A DNA stretch of 64,000 nt, from positions 62,001-126,000 of the forward strand of contig NZ_JAHWZX010000004.1 of the NCBI RefSeq assembly GCF_019351405.1, written 5' to 3'. Under the pieces are notes generated by a model that was not told the DNA's origin, made no database searches, and saw only the letters and a program-made list of their open reading frames with translations. The stretch comes from Stakelama flava (GTDB taxonomy: Bacteria > Pseudomonadota > Alphaproteobacteria > Sphingomonadales > Sphingomonadaceae). The translations under genes were made by a program, and so were the position numbers. Shown one piece after another: positions 7,497 to 63,500 of this stretch; positions within the stretch are counted from its first letter, which is position 1, and each line of letters starts with the position of its first letter.

Positions 7497-8776
7497 TACC
7501 AGCGGGTCTCGAAACGGTTGCGGAGATAGATGGCGAGGGCGTTCATCGCGAGCAGGAACAGCAACAGCACGATGATCGCGGCTGAGGTTCGTTCGACAAA
7601 GCCGCGGCTGATCTGATCCGACCACAGGAAAATCTGCACGGGCAGCACCGTGGCTGGGTCGGTCAGTCCTTCCGGCGGCTGGGCGATAAAGGCACGCATT
7701 CCGATCATCAGCAGCGGCGCCGTTTCGCCCAGCGCGCGCGCCATGCCGATGATCGTGCCGGTAAGGATGCCGGGCAGGGCGAGCGGCAGGACGTGGTGAA
7801 AGATCACCTGTACCTTGCTTGCGCCGACGCCCAGCGCCGCGTCGCGGATCGAGGGCGGCACCGCCTTGATCGCGTTGCGGCTGGCGATAACGATGACCGG
7901 CATGATCATCAGCGCCAGCGTCAGCCCGCCGACCAGCGAGGCTGATCGCGGCAGGTTCATGAAGCTGAGGAACACGGCAAGGCCAAGCAGCCCGAAGATG
8001 ATCGAGGGCACGGCCGCCAGATTGTTGATCGATACCTCGATCAGGTCGGTCCAGCGGTTTTTACGGGCATATTCTTCAAGATATACTGCCGAAAGCACGC
8101 CGATGGGGAAGGCGATGGCCAGCGTCACCAGCATGGTGAACAGCGATCCCTTCACCGCGCCCCAGATGCCGACATCGGTCGGATCAGTCGAATCGGCGGA
8201 CATCAGGAAGCCGAAATCGAACGAGGAGCCGATCATATCGTGCTGCTTCAGCTTTGCCGCGATCGCCTGCATTTCGGGCTTTCCCGCCCCGTCGAGCGCG
8301 CTTTTCAGGTCCTGTGACACCGGCACGGAGATCGCTGCCTTTCGGTTCAGCAACGATGGATCATCCTTCAGTGCATCGCGAACACCGGTCCAGGCATGCG
8401 GCGAAATCACATCGGGACCGTGCGCACCAAAGGCGGCTGTCGCCGAGCGTTCGACCAGTTCTTCCAAACCCGCACCCGCCAGCGCCAGATCGGCACCCCG
8501 GCTTTCAAGCTGCTGTGGTGTAACGTCGAGTTGTGCCGCCCGAAAATCGATCGGCAGCGTAACTTCGGTGCGCGTAAAGCCGGCAATGCCGTTCGACAGC
8601 ATAGTAATCAGCAAAAAGGCGAGAAAACCGGCCGACAGCACGACCGCGCCCAGCCCGATCAGGCGGAATCGCCGTTCTGCGGCATAGCGACGTCGTATGC
8701 GCCGCTGCATCGCCGTGCCGCGCCAGTCGGTGGGGCGGCGCGGCGCGCCTGCGTCGGGGGCGGGCGGGTTATTCAT
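7496..8776 (-). CDS. pstA: Phosphate ABC transporter permease PstA
   Basis: A 426-residue inner-membrane permease. After a cytoplasmic N-terminus there is one membrane segment, then a long periplasmic stretch (about residues 70-200), and a C-terminal MetI-type permease core with five membrane segments. The EAA-type loop is visible as [20 protein letters not shown]. It is longer than E. coli PstA because of the periplasmic insertion, as in other alphaproteobacteria. Its start overlaps the pstC stop by 8 bases. Confidence 0.95.
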
Positions 8777-10145
8777 AGGCCTCGCGATATTTCTTCACGA
8801 CGCGCAGCGCGACGATGTTGAGCAGGAAAGTGATGACGAACAGCGTCAGCCCCAGCGCGAATGCGGCAAGCGTTTTCGGGCTGTCGAATTCCGCTTCGCC
8901 GGTCAGCAGGTCGACGATCTGCTTGGTGACCGTAGTGGCGCTTTCGAACGGGTTGAGCGTGATCGTCGCCGCGCCGGAGGCCGCCATCACCACGATCATC
9001 GTTTCCCCGATCGCGCGGCTGACGGCGAGCAGAATGCCCGCCACCACGCCGGGAAGCGAGGCGGGCAGCAGCACACGCCGGATGGTTTCCGACGTCGTCG
9101 CGCCCATGGCCAGCGATCCGTCGCGCATCGATGTCGGCACCGCCGCGATCGAATCGTCCGCCATCGAGGATACGAAGGGGATGATCATCACCCCCATCAC
9201 CAGCCCGGCGGCAAGCGCGCTTTCGCTGCTGGCATATTCAAAGCCAAGCATGACGGCGAAATCGCGGATCGCGGGCGCTACGGTCAACGCGGCGAAATAG
9301 CCATAGACGACCGTCGGCACGCCGGCGAGAATCTCAAGAATCGGTTTCATCCATTTGCGCACGCGCGGCGCGGCATATTGGGTGAGGTAGATGGCGCTCA
9401 TCAGCCCGAAGGGGATGGCTACGATCATCGCGATCACCGCGCCGATGAAGAATGTGCCCCAGAACAGTGGAACCGCGCCAAGCGATTTGCCCGGATCGGT
9501 CGAACTGATGACCTGCGGGCTCCAATGCGTGCCGAACAGGAAATCGGTGATCGGCACGACCGAGAAGAACCGCGCCGATTCGATCAGCAGCGAAACGAAA
9601 ATGCCCAGCGTCGTCAGGATCGCGATCAGCGATGCTATCAGCAACACCAGCATGACCGTGCGTTCGACCCGGGTTCGCGCGCGAAACACCGGGCTGACCC
9701 GCGAATAGGCATAGGCGAAACCGGCAAAGGCCAGAAGGACAGTCAGCGCAGTGCCGATCCAGCTATAGCGCGTTTGCGCTTTGCCATAAGCGGGGGCGAG
9801 CACGCGCGCCTCTTCATTGAATGCGCCCGCATCGGGGTTGTTCGCCAGCCTGCGCGCTTCGCCCAGGATCGAATCGCGCTGAAACCCGAATTGCGGCAGC
9901 GTGCTTGCTGCGGGCGTTTCCAGCACGGCCTCGCGCACCAGCGAGGGCGAGATCGCCGACCATGCGGTGAGAAACAGCAAGGCGGGCAGCGCGGTCCACA
10001 GCGCGACATAGGTCGCGTGCTGGCCGGGGCGCGAATGGCTGCGTGTCGCCGAAACGCGGATCAGGCGCCCGGCGCGCGCCCGCGCCGTCAGCCAGCCGAT
10101 CAGGCCGAGGCCGAGAACGAGGAAGAGAAGGGCGAAGGAATTCAC
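8769..10145 (-). CDS. pstC: Phosphate ABC transporter permease PstC
   Basis: A 458-residue permease subunit that pairs with PstA. It has two N-terminal membrane segments separated by a periplasmic loop, then the MetI-type core with the EAA-loop sequence RDGSLAMGATTSETIRRVLLP. The start is a GTG at 10145; no strong Shine-Dalgarno is visible. It lies 76 bases after the pstS stop and overlaps pstA, within the phosphate operon. Confidence 0.95.
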   Translation of the reverse strand: MNSFALLFLVLGLGLIGWLTARARAGRLIRVSATRSHSRPGQHATYVALWTALPALLFLTAWSAISPSLVREAVLETPAASTLPQFGFQRDSILGEARRLANNPDAGAFNEEARVLAPAYGKAQTRYSWIGTALTVLLAFAGFAYAYSRVSPVFRARTRVERTVMLVLLIASLIAILTTLGIFVSLLIESARFFSVVPITDFLFGTHWSPQVISSTDPGKSLGAVPLFWGTFFIGAVIAMIVAIPFGLMSAIYLTQYAAPRVRKWMKPILEILAGVPTVVYGYFAALTVAPAIRDFAVMLGFEYASSESALAAGLVMGVMIIPFVSSMADDSIAAVPTSMRDGSLAMGATTSETIRRVLLPASLPGVVAGILLAVSRAIGETMIVVMAASGAATITLNPFESATTVTKQIVDLLTGEAEFDSPKTLAAFALGLTLFVITFLLNIVALRVVKKYREAYE

Positions 10146-10221
10146 GCTGCGACCGTCATTTCGTTGCGATTTGCAGGCGCGCCGGCGATGGCGCGCCCGT
10201 CATTTTTCAGAACCATGCCGA

Positions 10222-11268
10222 TCAATGCAACTCATCATCAGCAAGCGTTTCGGCGGTGATCGTGGTGCCCTGATCGATAATGCGCTCACTTTGCTGACGA
10301 ATATCGGCCGGGGCGGCGATCATCCCCTTGGCGACCAGTGGCCCGTCCGGGTCCCACATCTGGGTATATTCGTGCAGGAACTGCTTCATGCCGGGAACCG
10401 CGTTCAGATGCTGTTTCTTGACATAGATGAACAGCGGGCGCGCGCCCGGATAGGACCGATCGGCGATATTGGCATAGGTCGGTTCGACGCCGTTGACCGG
10501 CACGCCGTTCAGCCGGTCGCGATTTTCCTCAAGATAGCTGTAGCCGAATATCCCGATCGCATTGGGGCTGACGGTCAGGTTCTGGACGATGATATTGTCG
10601 TTTTCACCCTTGTCGACATAGGCACCGTCTTCGCGGATGCGCTGGCACCGATCCTTGAACGCGTCCTTGTCGCTTTCTTCCAGCTTCGCCGCCTGCGGAT
10701 CGACTTCCTTGCAGCCTTTGGCGAGGATCAGTTCGGCCAGCGCATCGCGCGTGCCGCTGGTAGAGGGTGGGCCGAAAACCTGAATCGGCGTATGCGGAAG
10801 TTTGGGATTAACGTCGTTCCAGAATTTCGCCGTTTGCTGCTTGCCCATCGGATTGGCGGCAAGCGCGCGGTAGATGTCGGCGCGGGTCAGTTCGAGCTTC
10901 GGGCCCTTTTTCGATTCGGCAAAGGCAACGCCGTCCATGCCGACCTGGATTTCCATGATTCCGTCGACGCCGTTCTGGGTACAGGTCTGAAATTCGCCGG
11001 GTGTCATCCGGCGTGAAGCATCCTCGATATCGGGATGCTGAACGCCCACGCCGTTGCAGAACAGCTTCATTCCGCCGCCGGTGCCGGTCGATTCGATCAC
11101 CGGCGTCTTGAGCGACGGATTGGCATTCACCATCGCTTCGGCAACCGCGGTGGAGAAGGGGTAGACGGTCGATGAGCCGACGATCTTCATATAATCGCGC
11201 GACGAATCCTGGCTGCAGCCGGTGACTGCGATCGCCGCCGCGGCGATGACGGTTAACCTGCCGAACAT
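10222..11268 (-). CDS. pstS: Phosphate-binding lipoprotein PstS
   Basis: A 348-residue substrate-binding protein of the Pst importer. The signal peptide ends in a lipobox (AVTGC, Cys about residue 17), so the mature protein is probably lipid-anchored rather than free in the periplasm. Phosphate-binding segments GSSTVYPFS, ESTGTGGG and STSGTRDAL are present. The start is the ATG at 11268 after a purine-rich AGGAAGGG site, which gives a proper signal peptide; an in-frame ATG 11 codons upstream (11301) would not. A Pho-box-like site lies about 100 bases upstream. Confidence 0.95.
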   Translation of the reverse strand: MFGRLTVIAAAAIAVTGCSQDSSRDYMKIVGSSTVYPFSTAVAEAMVNANPSLKTPVIESTGTGGGMKLFCNGVGVQHPDIEDASRRMTPGEFQTCTQNGVDGIMEIQVGMDGVAFAESKKGPKLELTRADIYRALAANPMGKQQTAKFWNDVNPKLPHTPIQVFGPPSTSGTRDALAELILAKGCKEVDPQAAKLEESDKDAFKDRCQRIREDGAYVDKGENDNIIVQNLTVSPNAIGIFGYSYLEENRDRLNGVPVNGVEPTYANIADRSYPGARPLFIYVKKQHLNAVPGMKQFLHEYTQMWDPDGPLVAKGMIAAPADIRQQSERIIDQGTTITAETLADDELH

Positions 11269-11366
11269 TTGCTTTCCCTTCCTGCTACCCGATATCCGCA
11301 CGCCGGTGGCCAGCGGCGATCCGCATGTCCGATAGCGTGTTGTCAGGTCGCCAATGTTCCAATCGG

Positions 11367-11384
11367 GTTACGATACGATGACAG
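11367..11384 (-). promoter_or_regulatory. Pho-box-like site before pstS
   Basis: On the minus strand CTGTCAT, four bases, then TCGTAAC forms an imperfect 11-base-period direct repeat like the PhoB site (CTGTCAT-N4-CTGTCAC). The first half is perfect and the second matches 4 of 7. It lies between the phoR stop (11395) and the pstS start, where a PhoB-driven internal promoter would be expected. Confidence 0.5.
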
Positions 11385-11394
11385 TGGTGTGATC

Positions 11395-12630
11395 TTATGA
11401 TGACACGGGCTGCAAAGGCAGGTGCACGGTGACGGTGGTGCCCTTGCCCGGCGTGCTGGCGATATCCAGCCGTCCGCGATGCCGCTCGACGATATGTTTG
11501 ACGATGGAAAGGCCAAGGCCGGTGCCGCCCATCGCGCGGCTTCGTCCCGAATCGATGCGATAAAATCGCTCGGTCAGGCGGGGAAGCTGATCGGGCGCGA
11601 TGCCTTCGCCCTGATCGGTCACGCGAAGTTCCGCCATGCGGGTGCCGCTGGGGGTGAGGCGGATGGTGACGGGCGTGTCCGAATGTCCGTATTTCAACGC
11701 GTTGCCGATAATGTTGTGCAACAGTTGCGAAAGCTGCGCGCGGTCGCCCTTCACAGGGCGAATATCGGCGATGTCGAGTTTCAGGTGACTCGCGCGATCT
11801 TGTTGCGCCGCGCCGATCTCGGCGCATACTTCGCGGGTGAGCGCGGCAAGATCGACCTCGGCATCGGGTTCGCGATATTTTTCCGCCTCGATTCGCGACA
11901 GGCTCATCAGGTCGTCGACCAGACGCTGCATCCGCACCGCTTCGTTGAACATCACCGTCAGGAAACGCGCGCGAACCGCCGGGTCTTCGCCCGCTTCCTC
12001 ACTCAGCGTTTCGATAAAGCCGATGATCGAGGCGAGCGGCGTTCGCAGTTCGTGGCTTGCATTGGCGACAAAATCGACCCGCATCCGTTCGGCGGCATAG
12101 CTGCCGGTGCGATCGGTCAGATGCACGATGCGCACGCTCCTGCCGACGCGCCGCACGCGCATTTCCCAACGTTGGTCGCGGGTGCCCAGCCCGACCAGAT
12201 GGATCGGCGCGGTATCGTCTTCGCCGTGATCGCGGATCAGCCGTTCAGCGGCTGCCGGGTGACGGATGGCAAGCCGGACATCCTCCCCGACGATGTGACG
12301 ACCGAGCAGCGCATGGGCGGCTTGGTTGGCGCGAACGACGCGGTTGTCGGTTACGATCAGCACCGGCTCCACGGCCGCCTCCAGAATGTCGGCGGCGGCG
12401 ACATCGCTATCGCCGGGGGCGGGCCTTGGCAGTGCGGCTTCGGGGGATACCGGTTCGTCGCTTTCGGAAGCGGCGATCAATACCGCGGCGACCGAACCGA
12501 CGAGCGCGATCAGCACGGCGTTGATATCCGCACCGAGCGCAAGGCCGGCAGACACGCTTATAACGGCGAGCAACAGCGCATAGAGTGTGCGATGTCCGAA
12601 AACGCCTTCCATTGTGCCGCAATAAGGCAT
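11395..12630 (-). CDS. phoR: Phosphate regulon sensor histidine kinase PhoR
   Basis: A 411-residue membrane kinase that phosphorylates PhoB. Two adjacent membrane segments near the N-terminus (about residues 13-53) leave almost no periplasmic domain, as expected for PhoR. A PAS-like region (about 80-175) precedes the HisKA domain with the phospho-His in ASHELRTPL and the HATPase domain with NIIGNALKYG, DQGEGI and GTGLGLSIVKH. Starts at 12630 or 12612 (six codons later) cannot be separated. It heads the phosphate gene cluster. Confidence 0.93.
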   Translation of the reverse strand: MPYCGTMEGVFGHRTLYALLLAVISVSAGLALGADINAVLIALVGSVAAVLIAASESDEPVSPEAALPRPAPGDSDVAAADILEAAVEPVLIVTDNRVVRANQAAHALLGRHIVGEDVRLAIRHPAAAERLIRDHGEDDTAPIHLVGLGTRDQRWEMRVRRVGRSVRIVHLTDRTGSYAAERMRVDFVANASHELRTPLASIIGFIETLSEEAGEDPAVRARFLTVMFNEAVRMQRLVDDLMSLSRIEAEKYREPDAEVDLAALTREVCAEIGAAQQDRASHLKLDIADIRPVKGDRAQLSQLLHNIIGNALKYGHSDTPVTIRLTPSGTRMAELRVTDQGEGIAPDQLPRLTERFYRIDSGRSRAMGGTGLGLSIVKHIVERHRGRLDIASTPGKGTTVTVHLPLQPVSS

Positions 12631-12715: not shown

Positions 12716-13111
12716 ATGACCGACGAACCTTCTTCCGAACCCGGCGAGGTCAGTCGCCGTCGCGCGCTAATGCTGGGTGCGGTCGGTGCCAGTGCGGTAG
12801 TGTCGATCCGCCCTGCACTTGCGCAGACTGCGGCGTCGGTTTCGACGTGCGAAATTCCGGTGCCCGATCCGGCGCGCGCGGGAAGCTATATCGCGGCCGA
12901 TGGCTCGCTGGTTCCGGCCGGAACGCCTGGCGCGTTTGCGCCGCCCGCCGCCCCGTTCAAGGGCGAGGATGTGAAGCGCGCCATGCACGGCGGTCAGCTT
13001 CCCGGCACCGATTACGAAAGCAATCAGGCCTATATGCAATATATCCGGCGGCTTCAGCGCGGGACGAGCGGCTTTACCTGTTTCGCATCGCTGCAAATGC
13101 CGCGCGGCTGA
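12716..13111 (+). CDS. Twin-arginine-signal protein of the HPr-rel-A cassette, function unknown
   Basis: A 131-residue protein with a twin-arginine signal (SRRRALMLG at residues 13-21, hydrophobic core, cleavage near ALAQ-T at residue 37), so it is probably folded in the cytoplasm and then exported. The mature part has two cysteines (STCEIPV and FTCFA near the C-terminus) and a central GGQLPGTDYESNQAYMQYIRRLQ segment. It ends five bases before the PqqD-like gene and shares its direction, so it is the first gene of the cassette. I recognise no domain. Its size and export signal make it a candidate substrate of the neighbouring enzymes; that is inference. Confidence 0.7.
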   Translation: MTDEPSSEPGEVSRRRALMLGAVGASAVVSIRPALAQTAASVSTCEIPVPDPARAGSYIAADGSLVPAGTPGAFAPPAAPFKGEDVKRAMHGGQLPGTDYESNQAYMQYIRRLQRGTSGFTCFASLQMPRG

Positions 13112-13116
13112 TTCGC

Positions 13117-13392
13117 ATGGCCGGGCCGCAATACCTGGCGGAGCCGGCCCGGCGGATCAAATCCGTCCGCCTGGGCGGGATAACCGCGCTGTTCCACCGA
13201 CCCTCGGCGCGGACGCATCTGGTCGGGTCGCCGGTGCCGGAGATACTCGACGCGTTGCAGGAAACCGCGATGGATGCCAACGCACTCCTTACCTTTCTCC
13301 AAGATCGCTATGAGGTCGCGGATGCCGATCCCGCTTCGCTTGCCGCGCGGCTGGCCGAACTTGAAGCGGCGGGGCTTGTCCGCGTCGCATGA
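13117..13392 (+). CDS. PqqD-like peptide chaperone, HPr-rel-A system
   Basis: A 91-residue protein resembling PqqD-family winged-helix proteins, which bind peptide substrates for modifying enzymes. LFHRPSARTHLVG fits the strand region, and the C-terminal part (DANALLTFLQDRYEV, LAARLAELEAAGLV) fits the helix-turn-helix fold. The start at 13117 is the only ATG close after the upstream stop; the open frame runs further upstream, so the N-terminus is not certain. It overlaps the kinase gene by four bases (ATGA). The name comes from my memory of the TIGR family found beside HprK-related kinase A. Confidence 0.7.
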   Translation: MAGPQYLAEPARRIKSVRLGGITALFHRPSARTHLVGSPVPEILDALQETAMDANALLTFLQDRYEVADADPASLAARLAELEAAGLVRVA

Positions 13393-14252
13393 GACATAGC
13401 GTATCGCTGAAAATCGGTCCGGTCGGCTTTCGCATCGGATCGGATTGGCGCGTGCCCATCGCGGCGCTCAAAGACCTGTATCGCGATTATCCCGCGCCCG
13501 ATGATGGTATCGCTGATTTCAACGTCCGGCTGTTCGCCGCACGGTTCTGGCGGCGTTTCATTCGGCCCTCAGTGATGATCGGCGGCGATTACATTATTCC
13601 CGACGCAGCGCCGCTTCCGCTCGAAATGGGGCTGTTGGCGGCGGAGATGGGGATGAACCTGCAAATGGCGCTTGGGCAGCGGCGCTATTTGTTGCTCCAT
13701 GCCTCTGCCGTGGTACGCGACGGGAAAGCGTTGTTGATGTCCGGCGTGTCGGGGGCGGGCAAATCGACGCTCGCGGCGCTGCTGATGGCGCGCGGGTGGC
13801 GGTTGATGGGCGACGAATTCGCGCTGATCGATCCGATGAGCGGGCTGGTTTACGGCTTTCCCCGCCTGATCAGCCTGAAAAACGCGGCCATCGGCTTGAT
13901 GCGAAGCACGCTTCCGCAAGGACGATTCGGCCCGCTGATGAAGGCGACGCCAAAGGGTAATATCCGCCATCTGGTCCCCGACGCGCAAGCTATCGCCGCG
14001 ATGGAAACGCCAGCACGGCCCGCGCTGATCCTTTTTCCGACCTTCGGCCATGCGCCTGCCGAACGTGCGGTGGACGAAGCCGAGGCCTTTGTCCGGCTGA
14101 CCCAGGCATCGACCAATTTCGTCGGACTGGGCCAAGCGGGGTTCGATACGCTTACCCGTCTGGTGCGCGAGGTGCCCGCGCGCGCGATCGACTATCCCGA
14201 CACCGAAAGCGCGCTTCGGCTGGTCGAAGATTTGTGGAGCGCGACGGCATGA
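13389..14252 (+). CDS. HprK-related kinase A (HPr-rel-A system)
   Basis: A 287-residue protein with the C-terminal kinase fold of HPr kinase/phosphorylase. The P-loop GVSGAGKST is at residues 119-127, a conserved HAS motif is at 104-106, and GDEFALID (141-148) fits the Walker-B/metal region. The N-terminal domain of true HprK is replaced by about 100 unrelated residues, so it should not act on HPr in the classical way. Overlaps of four bases on both sides couple it to the PqqD-like and nucleotidyltransferase genes. Substrate unknown; a modified peptide or protein is an inference from the context. Confidence 0.78.
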   Translation: MRHSVSLKIGPVGFRIGSDWRVPIAALKDLYRDYPAPDDGIADFNVRLFAARFWRRFIRPSVMIGGDYIIPDAAPLPLEMGLLAAEMGMNLQMALGQRRYLLLHASAVVRDGKALLMSGVSGAGKSTLAALLMARGWRLMGDEFALIDPMSGLVYGFPRLISLKNAAIGLMRSTLPQGRFGPLMKATPKGNIRHLVPDAQAIAAMETPARPALILFPTFGHAPAERAVDEAEAFVRLTQASTNFVGLGQAGFDTLTRLVREVPARAIDYPDTESALRLVEDLWSATA

Positions 14253-15256
14253 GCGCGCGGCTGGTCGTCGAAACGCTGCGCGAACCGGCACGCTGCGAAC
14301 GCTATGACGCGGCACAATGGAACGCGCTGATCGCGGCGGCGCGCGCGGAGCAGATTATCGGCACGCTCGCCTGCCGGTTGGACGGGCTTTCGTTGCCGGT
14401 TGCCGCGAAGCGCATTCTGGACGACGCGCGTGCCTTGGCCGAGGTGGGGCGAACGCTGGCGCTGTGGGAAGCCGAAGCGGCACGGCGCGCGCTTGCGCCG
14501 CTGGGCGTGCCTGTTTTGCTGCTGAAAGGAACTGCCTTCGTTGCCGCCGGGCTGAAAGCCGGGGTGGGGCGGTCGATCGGTGACCTTGATATTCTGGTGC
14601 CGCGCGGCGCGCTCGACAGCGTGCAGGATGCACTGCTTGCCGCCGGGTGGGAATGGGTAAAGCCCGATCCGTATGACGATGCCTATTATCGCCAATGGAT
14701 GCACGAACTGCCGCCGCTGATCCATCGCGATCGCGACCGGATGATCGATGTTCACCACACGATCCTGCCGCTGACCGCGCGGATCACCCCGGACGCCGAT
14801 GCGATTATCGCGGATAGCGAAGCGCTTCAAAACGGGCTTCGCGTGCCGCAGCCCAATGACCTGCTATGCCATGCCGCGGCGCATCTGTTCGCCGATGGCG
14901 AGATGCTGGGCGGGGTGCGCAACCTGTGGGATATTCACTGCCTGCTGGAAGAGTTGGGCACTGACGGATTGGAAGCACGGGCGCGGCTCCACGGATTGCA
15001 TCACCACGTCATGCGCGCAGTGCGGCTGTCGCACGATCTGTACGGCACCGATATCCCGATCGACTGGCGCGTTCGCGACCCCGCCGACGCACTTTTCAAA
15101 CGGCGGCTTCTCGCGCGCGACGGATGGGGCAGGGTCCGCCCCAAATGGATCGAGCATGTATTTTATCTGCGTGGCCACTGGTTGCGAATGCCGCCGGCAA
15201 TGCTCGCGCGCCATCTATGGACCAAATGGCGAAAGGGCTATCACCCGGTGGGTTGA
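14249..15256 (+). CDS. Nucleotidyltransferase family protein (NTP_transf_5 type)
   Basis: A 335-residue cytoplasmic protein. The signature LLLKGTA (residues 90-96) followed by GVGRSIGDLDILV (105-117) matches the nucleotidyltransferase-fold active site, with metal ligands expected at Asp112 and Asp114. The remainder is helical (LCHAAAHLFADGEM and similar). It is the last gene of the four-gene cassette and overlaps the kinase by four bases. Its end overlaps the convergent gph gene by 16 bases. Members of this family occur beside HprK-related kinases; the acceptor molecule is unknown. Confidence 0.78.
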   Translation: MSARLVVETLREPARCERYDAAQWNALIAAARAEQIIGTLACRLDGLSLPVAAKRILDDARALAEVGRTLALWEAEAARRALAPLGVPVLLLKGTAFVAAGLKAGVGRSIGDLDILVPRGALDSVQDALLAAGWEWVKPDPYDDAYYRQWMHELPPLIHRDRDRMIDVHHTILPLTARITPDADAIIADSEALQNGLRVPQPNDLLCHAAAHLFADGEMLGGVRNLWDIHCLLEELGTDGLEARARLHGLHHHVMRAVRLSHDLYGTDIPIDWRVRDPADALFKRRLLARDGWGRVRPKWIEHVFYLRGHWLRMPPAMLARHLWTKWRKGYHPVG

Positions 15257-60549: not shown

Positions 60550-63500
60550 ATGAGCGATACCGATCAGCGCTGGAATTTCTGGATCGACCGGGGTGGTACC
60601 TTTACCGATGTCATCGCGCGTTCGCCGAAGGGCGAGGTCACGGTCGACAAGCTGTTGTCGGAAAATCCGGAACAGTATGACGATGCCGCCGTGGCGGCGA
60701 TCCGGCGAATTACCGGGGTGGAGACGGACGCTTTGCCTCCGCTCGACGTTCGGATCGGCACGACGATCGCGACCAACGCGCTGCTCGAACGCAAGGGGCA
60801 GCCGGTATTGCTGGCCATTACGCGCGGCTTTCGCGATGCGCTGACCATCGGTACGCAAGACCGGCCCGATATTTTTGCGAGGGCAATCCGGCGACCCGAC
60901 CCGCTTCATGCCGATGTGGTCGAGATTGACGAGCGGGTGGCGCCCGATGGCGAGGTGCTGACGTCGCTGGACGAGGACGCGGCGCGAAAGGCGCTGAGCG
61001 CGGCGTATGATCGCGGGTTGCGCGCCGTCGCGATCGTGTTGATGCACGGATATATTCACAGCGCGCATGAGCAGGCGCTGGCGGAAATTGCGCGGAATAT
61101 CGGCTTTACGCAGATTTCGGTCAGTCATGAGGTCGGCGCGCTGATCAAGCTGATCGGGCGCGGCGACACCAGCGTGGTTGATGCGTATCTGTCGCCGGTG
61201 TTGCGCAACTATGTCGAGACGCTGGAAAATGCGCTGGGCGAAGGTGCGCAGCCGCTGTTCATGCAATCGAACGGCGGGCTGACGCTGGGCCGCGCCTTTC
61301 GCGGGAAGGACGCAATCCTTTCCGGCCCGGCGGGCGGGATCGTGGGTATGGCGCAAACCGCGAAGCGTGCCGGGTTCGACAGGGTGATCGGCTTCGACAT
61401 GGGCGGCACGTCGACCGATGTCTCGCTATATGCCGGTCATTATGAGCGCGACAATGAAACCATGGTGGCGGGGGCGCGTATTCGCGCGCCGATGCTGCGT
61501 ATTCATACGGTCGCGGCGGGCGGTGGGTCAGTTTGCGGTTTCGATGGCGGGCGATTGCTGGTCGGGCCGGAATCGGCAGGCGCGGTGCCGGGGCCCGCTG
61601 CCTATCGTCGCGGCGGGCCGTTGACCATAACCGACTGCAATATCGCGCTGGGCAAGGTGCAGGCCGATTTCTTTCCCGCCCTGTTCGGGAAAGACGGCGA
61701 CCAGCCGCTTGATGCCGACGCATCGCGCGAGCGCCTGACCGAACTTGCCGATGCGGTTGGTGATGCAGGCGGCACGGCGCAATCGCCGGAGGAAATCGCC
61801 GAAGGACTTCTTACGATCGCGGTTGCCGATATGGCTAATGCGATCAAGGCGATTTCGATCGCGCGTGGACATGATGTCAGCCGCTTCGTGCTTGCCTGTT
61901 TCGGCGGGGCGGGTGGGCAGCATGCCTGTTTGGTCGCCGATGCGCTGGGGATCGACCGGGTGCTGATCCACCCGCTGGCGGGCGTATTGTCGGCCTATGG
62001 CATGGGGCTTGCCGATCGGCGCGAGCTTCGCGAACGCACGTTGTCGCTGCCGCTTGAGGACGCGCGAATGACTGCGCTGCGCGACGACGCCGATGCGTTG
62101 CAGGGCGAGGCCGTGGATGCGCTTGCCGCGCAGGGCGTGGCGCGCGAAACGATCGAAACGAACTGCATCGCGATGGTGCGCACGCACGGCACCGAAAGCA
62201 ACTTTGCTATTCCGCTGGGTAATCTGGACGATATGCGCGCCGCCTTTGCCGCCGCGTTCCGGCAGCGCTTCGGCTATGCCGACACCGGTGCACTGGTCGT
62301 CGACATGCTGCGTGCCGAGGCGGTGGCGAAAACCGGGCGGGCGGATGAACGCATCACCGCCGCCGCCGAACAGACCGCCGGTCCCGCCGCCATCACCCGA
62401 ACCTTCATGGCGGGCGAATGGCGCGAAACCCCGGTTCATCGCCGCGAGGAACTGGCCGAGGGCGCGCATATCGGCGGCCCTGCACTAATCATCGATGCGG
62501 TGTCGACCACGGTAATCGAGCCGGGCTGGGGCGCCGCCGTCGATGGCGACGGCGCGCTGGTCCTGAAGCGGGAGGAAGCGCGCGGCCGCGCCGAAATGGG
62601 CACGCAGCGCGACCCCGTCAGGCTGGAAATATTTTCGGGCCTGTTCATGGCGATTGCCGAGGAAATGGGCGCAGCGCTTCGTCACTCGGCATCATCGGTC
62701 AATATCCGCGAGCGGCTGGATTTTTCCTGCGCGCTGTTCGATGCCCAGGGCAATCTGATCGCCAACGCGCCGCACATTCCGGTGCATCTGGGATCGATGG
62801 GCGAAAGCATCCGCAGCGTGCTTGCCCGGCGCGGAACGGACGGGCGCGGCATTCGCGAAGGCGATGTCTACGCGCTGAACGCACCCTATGACGGCGGTAC
62901 GCACCTTCCCGATATCACGGTTATCCGTCCGGTATTCGCCGGTGGCGGCGATGTGCCCGATTATTTCGTCGCGGCACGCGGGCATCATGCCGATGTCGGC
63001 GGCATCTCGCCCGGATCGATGCCGCCGAACAGCGTGACGATCGAGGAAGAGGGCATCATCTTCGACAATGTTCTGCTGGTCGATGAAGGGCGTTTTCGTG
63101 AGGCGGAGGTGCGCGAGTTGCTAGCCTCCGGTCGCTGGCCCGCGCGCAATATCGATCAGAATATCGCCGATCTAGCCGCGCAGGTCGCGGCATGTGAGCG
63201 CGGTGCATCCGCGCTTTGCGGGATTGCAGACCAATATGGCGCGGATGTCGTCACCGCCTATATGGCGCATGTGCAGGACTATGCCGCTGAAGCGGTACAG
63301 CGCCTGATACCCCGTCTGTCGGGCGGCGAGTTCGCTTATGAAATGGACAGCGGCGCGGTAGTGAAGGCGCGCATCGACATCGATGCAGATAAAGGTGCGA
63401 TGACGGTCGATTTCACAGGCACCAGCGCGCAGCAGCCCGACAATTTCAACGCCCCGCTGGCCGTAACGCGTGCGGCCGTGCTCTACGCCATCCGCACGTT

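Follow-up and report, generated by a model that had tools for sequence, protein, structure and literature searches.

A conserved HPr-rel-A cassette of Stakelama flava with a Tat-type protein as its candidate substrate

What do an HprK-like kinase, a PqqD-like protein and a nucleotidyltransferase do together when their genes follow directly on that of a small twin-arginine protein, and on what do they act? The question is raised by a four-gene operon in a 64,000-nucleotide stretch of Stakelama flava DNA (NZ_JAHWZX010000004.1, positions 62,001 to 126,000; hereafter the window), whose kinase and PqqD-like protein match the HPr-rel-A families TIGR04352 and TIGR04353. The names of these families carry no function and mention neither a precursor for twin-arginine translocation (Tat) nor a partner of family PF14907. 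We propose, with a probability of roughly 0.68, that the operon is a tailoring system resembling those of ribosomally synthesized and post-translationally modified peptides (RiPPs), whose precursor is the Tat-exported protein: the adaptor would bind its twin-arginine (RR) leader, the kinase would phosphorylate it and the nucleotidyltransferase would extend the phosphate.

Layout, conservation and co-occurrence

All four genes lie on the plus strand of the window in the order Tat-type protein, PqqD-like protein, HprK-like kinase and nucleotidyltransferase. Five bases separate the first from the second, and each of the two later junctions is a 4-base ATGA overlap (13389-13392 and 14249-14252).

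12716..13111, plus strand: small Tat-type protein of 131 residues, type T1, proposed precursor and substrate (invariant RR signal, co-occurrence with the kinase)
12716..12823, plus strand: RR signal region, residues 1-36, ending RPALA (the cleavage point is our reading of the sequence)
13070..13093, plus strand: C-terminal motif G-F-T-C-F-A-S-L, residues 119-126 (from alignment)
13088-13090, plus strand: Ser125, proposed phosphorylation site within the C-terminal motif
13117..13392, plus strand: PqqD-like adaptor, PqqD_rel_X (TIGR04353, by profile match), proposed RiPP recognition element (RRE)
13389..14252, plus strand: HprK-like kinase, HprK_rel_A (TIGR04352), with its P-loop at 13743-13769
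14249..15256, plus strand: nucleotidyltransferase-fold enzyme, NTP_transf_5 (PF14907), with D-x-D at 14582-14590 and a third Asp at 14747-14749

Profile searches placed three of the four products above their family cut-offs: the PqqD-like protein in TIGR04353 (59.3 bits, cut-off 35), the kinase in TIGR04352 (235.4 bits, cut-off 200) and the nucleotidyltransferase in PF14907 (158 bits, cut-off 31.2). At E≤1 the Tat-type protein matched no NCBIfam or Pfam family, and the PqqD-like protein did not match PF05402. Across 11 pairwise comparisons with Sphingomonadaceae orthologues, nonsynonymous divergence (dN) in the four genes ran from 0.16 to 0.55 versus 0.78 to 1.9 for synonymous divergence (dS); the Tat-type gene alone gave dN 0.16-0.29 and dS 0.89-1.5 (three comparisons). 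By this measure all four genes look protein-coding and under purifying selection. Scans for promoters and terminators returned one promoter-like site (0.8 in shuffles) and four terminator-like sites (2.7 in shuffles), none of either kind in the gap 5' of the Tat gene.

The association of these genes is far beyond chance. Among 398 sampled Pseudomonadota genomes the kinase scored above cut-off in 61, PqqD_rel_X in 52 and both in 49, with PqqD_rel_X directly 5' of the kinase at 44 of 53 places. We also surveyed 101 loci chosen on kinase similarity alone, comprising the window, 20 of the 61 kinase-positive genomes and the best 80 listed of one collection scan (loci carry L numbers and genomes G numbers; L049 and L059 are one place, giving 100 distinct loci). 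The nucleotidyltransferase gene adjoined the kinase on the same strand in 98; it lay nearby on the opposite strand in L088 and was not found in L039 or in L119, a contig end. Kinase and nucleotidyltransferase form a single 706-residue frame in L040, a natural fusion that supports their joint action. A PqqD-like gene lay 5' of the kinase in 94 of the 101 loci, and a Tat-type protein was likewise encoded within 94 (weakly assigned in L050, E 0.0028), its gene standing about 1.6 kb 5' of the adaptor in four Sphingobium loci and on the 3' side in L086 and L103. The Tat-type protein was not found within L039, L043, L071, L072, L073, L107 (a contig end) or L132, where we read the upstream frame as transposase-like. 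The first-pass annotation of this DNA had described a coupled cassette of three named families behind a small exported protein; its open reading frames (ORFs), gene order, coordinates, junctions and family assignments all held up, as did the coupling itself, both in the neighbourhood survey and in the coding constraint on the PqqD-like ORF.

Does the Tat-type protein travel with the enzymes? A search of 149 Sphingomonadaceae genomes found, at E≤1e-6, both the Tat protein and the kinase in 41, the Tat protein only in none, the kinase only in 4 and neither in 104; at E≤1e-3 the corresponding counts were 44, 6, 1 and 98, the six Tat-only matches having E values from 1.2e-5 to 6.3e-4. Fisher tests gave 1.7e-32 and 5.1e-30, respectively, values that ignore relatedness. 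The Tat match lay within 2.5 kb of the kinase for 41 of 45 kinases, and in the four kinase-only genomes of the stricter threshold the precursor beside the kinase is divergent (G401, G485), frame-broken (G403) or a C-terminal piece cut by the contig end (G473). At least six genomes keep the Tat protein away from the kinase, at 163 kb in G214 and 279 kb in G507. In G268 the Tat gene sits with a PqqD-like gene on contig 3 and the kinase is on contig 7, and the Tat protein of the L071-L073 genomes (Sphingopyxis group; E 9e-55 or better) is encoded at another place, where the surrounding 3.4 kb contain no cassette gene.

These distributions bear on an alternative in which Tat proof-reading is the task of the PqqD-like protein: as a chaperone it would keep hold of the RR signal until folding is complete, the enzymes would target something else and the Tat protein would be a mere client. 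The adaptor-Tat pair is separable from the kinase-nucleotidyltransferase pair in G268, and the seven surveyed loci with no detectable PqqD-like gene retain the enzymes, as such a chaperone would allow. However, the Tat protein never occurs without the kinase at the stricter threshold, the adaptor matches B1 proteins of lasso peptide clusters and the cassette encodes no other conserved candidate target, and we consider this alternative unlikely.

Precursor types, the RR leader and the C-terminal tail

Precursors at the 94 loci fall into three types, T1 (34, short, from Sphingomonadaceae), T2 (51) and T3 (9), which have the RR signal in common and differ in their mature parts. T2 mature parts carry C..PSG..SGN.S and C.G.SPGYWK, and L096, L103 and L118 encode two T2 precursors each. 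In deep Sphingomonadaceae members the leader is similar and the end invariant, with little conservation between the two. A T2 profile found 23 matches in the 398 genomes, 20 of them in kinase-positive genomes, in a search that scored at most eight candidates per genome, so that absences are weak. Those 20 extend into the N-terminal part, and the other three cover the mature domain only, from model position 76. The T2 mature domain (SPGYWK type) stands without a leader part in longer proteins at G171:C31:744-1103, G284:C2:94585-94842 and G342:C23:21698-21970, in genomes with no kinase above cut-off.

RR and the pattern that follows it are present in every leader extracted (34 T1, 50 T2 and 9 T3), and the window protein has the RR signal with hydrophobic stretch of a Tat substrate; TIGR01409, which has 16 matches in the window genome, does not pick it up. 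As controls we took 36 ordinary Tat signals of these genomes, matched by TIGR01409 or PF10518 (some weakly), and compared the leaders with them by patterns chosen after inspection. Of the 69 T2, T3 and deep T1 leaders, 39 have a Pro midway along the hydrophobic stretch and 58 have phi-phi-[TS]-phi; the corresponding numbers among the 36 ordinary signals are 0 and 4. Core T1 rows were picked by a pattern favouring phi-phi-[TS]-phi, and its presence in 29 of 30 of them is therefore partly circular. This comparison left out L128 (no RR in frame), L059 (duplicate) and three T1 rows off the extraction pattern, and, among the controls, L185 (misframed) and 9 of 46 loci that yielded no leader. The window leader carries Ser where many relatives carry Pro, and its link to the wider set runs by alignment through deep family members and by the T2 profile, which matches the G268 Tat protein at positions 8-55 only (E 5.3e-5).

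At the C-terminus, [ST]C[FWYLIV]xS[LIFV] is present in 33 of 33 T1 and 8 of 9 T3 precursors and, by eye, in 11 of 11 readable deep precursors (L153, L155-L162, L165, L166). Five mature residues are invariant in 41 aligned T1 precursors: S41, C45, G119, C122 and S125. On this alignment Ser125 of the window protein is a tentative choice for the phosphorylation site, which we hold at slightly less than even odds. The structural model of the protein has a mean predicted local distance difference test score (pLDDT) of 74.5 overall, low in the signal, and a predicted template modelling score (pTM) of 0.60; block means over residues 41-130 are mostly 78-94, predicting a folded mature domain. A fold search of the model in the PDB gave a best E of 5.8.

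Very small RR-leader ORFs lie beside other kinase and nucleotidyltransferase pairs: L146 6943-7155 on the minus strand and, on the plus strand, L147 5518-5727, L148 5097-5282, L167 1232-1513 and 1723-2010, L168 1442-1816 and L169 1557-1976. Some are Cys-rich, one locus has two copies, and they are possibly a sister class of precursors. By eye, such mini precursors (61-139 residues) lie near 8 of 13 further kinase and nucleotidyltransferase loci that have no cyclase match, those of L144 and L173 being on the opposite strand. The RR leaders of the four mini precursors in L167-L169 contain Y-V-P-P-A-I, which fits the RRE-recognition leader motif [Y/W]xxPx[L/V/I/F/A] given in the available part of PMC13381572.

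Kinship with peptide-tailoring systems and a proposed mechanism

We compared the adaptor and kinase profiles with those of lasso-like clusters (kinase, PqqD and asparagine-synthase-like gene), which are present in the window's genus and in which two PqqD proteins match PF05402 and one kinase matches Hpr_kinase_C above cut-off. The adaptor aligned with the B1-like proteins at hhalign probability 96.4 (E 1.2e-9) and the kinase with the lasso-cluster kinases K at 99.6 (E 9.7e-24 over 212 columns), in sets where two of eight adaptor loci (L137, L138) and one of eight kinase loci (L137) have no cyclase-like gene. In the PDB the adaptor profile reached the lasso RRE TfuB1 (6jx3; E 0.0019) behind two designed proteins. 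These profile matches show the adaptor to be a homologue of lasso-cluster B1 and the kinase a homologue of K. Besides an HPr-rel-A cassette, genome G223 from the window's genus has at least four lasso-like clusters (L133-L136), in which an HprK-like kinase gene accompanies an asparagine-synthase-like gene.

The catalytic machinery of both enzymes looks intact on alignment, with the kinase P-loop, His104 and Asp142-Glu143 invariant in 19 relatives and D112, D114 and D167 of the nucleotidyltransferase invariant in 15. A model of the nucleotidyltransferase (pLDDT 91.6) has MenT1 (E 3.7e-4) and ANT(2'')-Ia (E 8.7e-4) as its nearest solved folds, with FKRP weak (E 0.30); its profile found nothing convincing among PDB sequences. 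In PADLOC the sole match was a weak one, of the kinase to mads_8 (19.8 bits).

In the paeninodin and pseudomycoidin lasso systems, an RRE (B1), a Ser kinase (K) and a nucleotidyltransferase-family enzyme (N) likewise occur together; according to the available parts of the sources, lasso kinases phosphorylate a C-terminal Ser, and PsmK phosphorylates the peptide before PsmN adds one or two hexoses to the phosphate (PMC8498205, PMC9266682). Lasso systems also have a cyclase, a B2 protease, a C-terminal Ser and a short threaded peptide, whereas the window cassette has no cyclase and no C-terminal Ser. A lasso-type or other peptide might still be cut from the Tat protein, with the exported domain as a mere carrier, and the kinship of both adaptor and kinase with lasso clusters, which the window's own genus also has, speaks for such a product; yet neither a macrolactam cyclase nor a B2 protease gene adjoins the window cassette and the mature domain is predicted to fold, which makes this very unlikely.

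Of the systems described so far, the nearest to the cassette are these lasso peptides and the linear polyphosphorylated peptides (LPP) of Bacillota. LPP clusters combine a precursor, a discrete RRE, an HprK-like kinase and an uncharacterized nucleoside triphosphate (NTP) transferase, each with a counterpart in the window cassette (PMC13381572). There, in the part of the source available, LppK puts phosphates on Ser3 of LppA, the NTP transferase was inactive in the test host and the clusters often adjoin capsular polysaccharide genes; that part does not state whether LppN belongs to PF14907. Precursors of both systems have a conserved N-terminal leader and a variable remainder (35-200 residues in LPP). 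The LPP leader YxxPxVLxHQxIxFETxxS is absent from the window Tat protein, its short form YxxPx[I] appearing only in the L167-L169 mini precursors. LPP clusters include a SipW-like signal peptidase and an MsbA-like transporter, whereas the window cassette has an RR signal and, in a check confined to the window, neither gene in its flanks, and the precursors here are protein-sized, from Pseudomonadota and predicted to be folded.

SynChlorMet, a radical SAM peptide cassette with a PqqD homologue, has an HprK-like kinase, ScmC. Its family TIGR04249 matched the window kinase weakly (22.2 bits, cut-off 125), and no radical SAM genes were seen at the window cassette.

How might the cassette work? We infer the Tat protein as substrate, the binding of its signal by the adaptor, the site, the order of steps, the added group and Tat export itself, following the precedent of LppK with LppA and PsmK with PsmN in the parts of those papers available. 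The PqqD-like protein would be an RRE: bound to the RR signal region, it would present the precursor to the enzymes, so that the RR signal would serve both as Tat signal and as RRE-bound leader. The HprK-like kinase would then phosphorylate a precursor Ser, with Ser125 of the C-terminal C-x-x-S the likeliest site in the window protein, and the NTP_transf_5 enzyme would add a nucleotidyl, sugar or sugar-phosphate group to that phosphate. Once finished, the protein would leave folded through Tat and lose its signal afterwards, and no dedicated transporter or leader peptidase would be needed.

Several observations weigh against this proposal. The [ST]C[FWYLIV]xS[LIFV] tail is present in 1 of 51 T2 precursors, which have other conserved Ser residues, so a single common site is not established and the T2 site must lie elsewhere; the motif tests were also post hoc and made on related sequences. 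A C-terminal Ser, as in lasso precursors, was considered and rejected, the window protein ending in ASLQMPRG and the other precursors having no common terminal Ser. The mid-hydrophobic Pro occurs in none of the 30 core T1 leaders, the window's included, the window leader has no [Y/W]xxP motif, and a T2/T3 leader profile run on the window genome produced two matches, both weak (E 0.08 and 7.4), and missed the window Tat protein. The PqqD-like gene was undetected in L039, L041, L042, L043, L044, L105 and L125; L041 and L042 have a small ORF of about 90 codons at its usual spot. Finally, deletion of lppN was without visible effect in the available account of LPP (PMC13381572), which leaves the nucleotidyltransferase step the least certain.

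It is more improbable still than a cut-out peptide that the kinase is an HPr kinase/phosphorylase regulating carbon or phosphate metabolism with the Tat protein a bystander: it has an HprK-like P-loop region and PhoR and Pst genes adjacent, but it scored 19.9 bits against a cut-off of 240 in TIGR00679 and below cut-off in Hpr_kinase_C, it co-occurs with the Tat protein, and a gene nearer to true HprK (L142, TIGR00679 77.5 bits) stands elsewhere in the window genome beside RapZ. Alphaproteobacteria have a short form of HprK.

Genomic surroundings and meaning of the cassette

The window cassette is flanked on one side by PhoR/PstSC-like genes (8769-12630, minus strand), which run away from the Tat gene with a short gap between and of which PhoR and PstS score under their family cut-offs, and on the other by Gph, GlmU, GlmS and a quinone oxidoreductase-like gene. 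Many Sphingomonadaceae loci have kept this layout: a PhoR-like gene is present in 33 and GlmU in 27 of 38, and the frequency of the former makes phosphate control of the cassette worth considering. XrtA/PEP-CTERM-related genes lie near a minority of the 63 other loci (export protein 11, PrsR-like 8, PrsK 5, amidotransferase 3, FemAB 2; one representative of each was named by family). An asparagine-synthase family gene stands beside three of these 63; the one checked is an XrtA-type amidotransferase. PEP_CTERM had no match in the window genome, in a test that was itself uninformative. A serine protease-like gene (GNSGGP motif, named by reading) lies near the cassette in 19 of the 63 loci, for example just 3' of the nucleotidyltransferase in L035, and might process the product.

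The first-pass annotation had called HPr-rel-A a named set lacking a functional explanation, and this agrees with our finding that the terms HPr-rel-A, HprK-related kinase A, TIGR04352 and TIGR04353 were absent from the literature searched (subscription papers and preprints lay outside its scope). Its suggestion that a peptide or protein is modified gains support. Its statement that no known product is present overlooked the small Tat protein, listed there merely as a neighbour, which is the best candidate substrate by locus conservation and co-occurrence. The label of an undescribed pathway survives in part: the enzyme combination tailors some lasso peptides (PMC8498205) and LPP (PMC13381572) in the accounts available, and the version with a Tat-exported, protein-sized precursor is undescribed in the literature searched.

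What is new here is a candidate substrate, a proposed leader logic and a testable site for families so far named without function, with the chemistry that we infer for them. A further reading, speculative and rather improbable, is that the cassette is a sorting system: in the cytoplasm the C-x-x-S tail would receive a phosphodiester-linked nucleotidyl or glycosyl tag, and once Tat had exported the protein this tag would tether it to an envelope polysaccharide or direct it within the envelope, with the RR signal a dual leader read first by the RRE and then by Tat. If true, bacteria would have here a new way to modify and attach proteins, alongside exosortase and lipoprotein anchoring; XrtA/PEP-CTERM polysaccharide genes lie near some relatives of the cassette in other Pseudomonadota. 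The link to a Tat-exported precursor makes the orphan HPr-rel-A families testable, their kinase being above cut-off in 61 of the 398 genomes. It would carry phosphate chemistry of the lasso and LPP type from peptides to folded exported proteins, and it suggests a second role for Tat signals, that of a RiPP leader.

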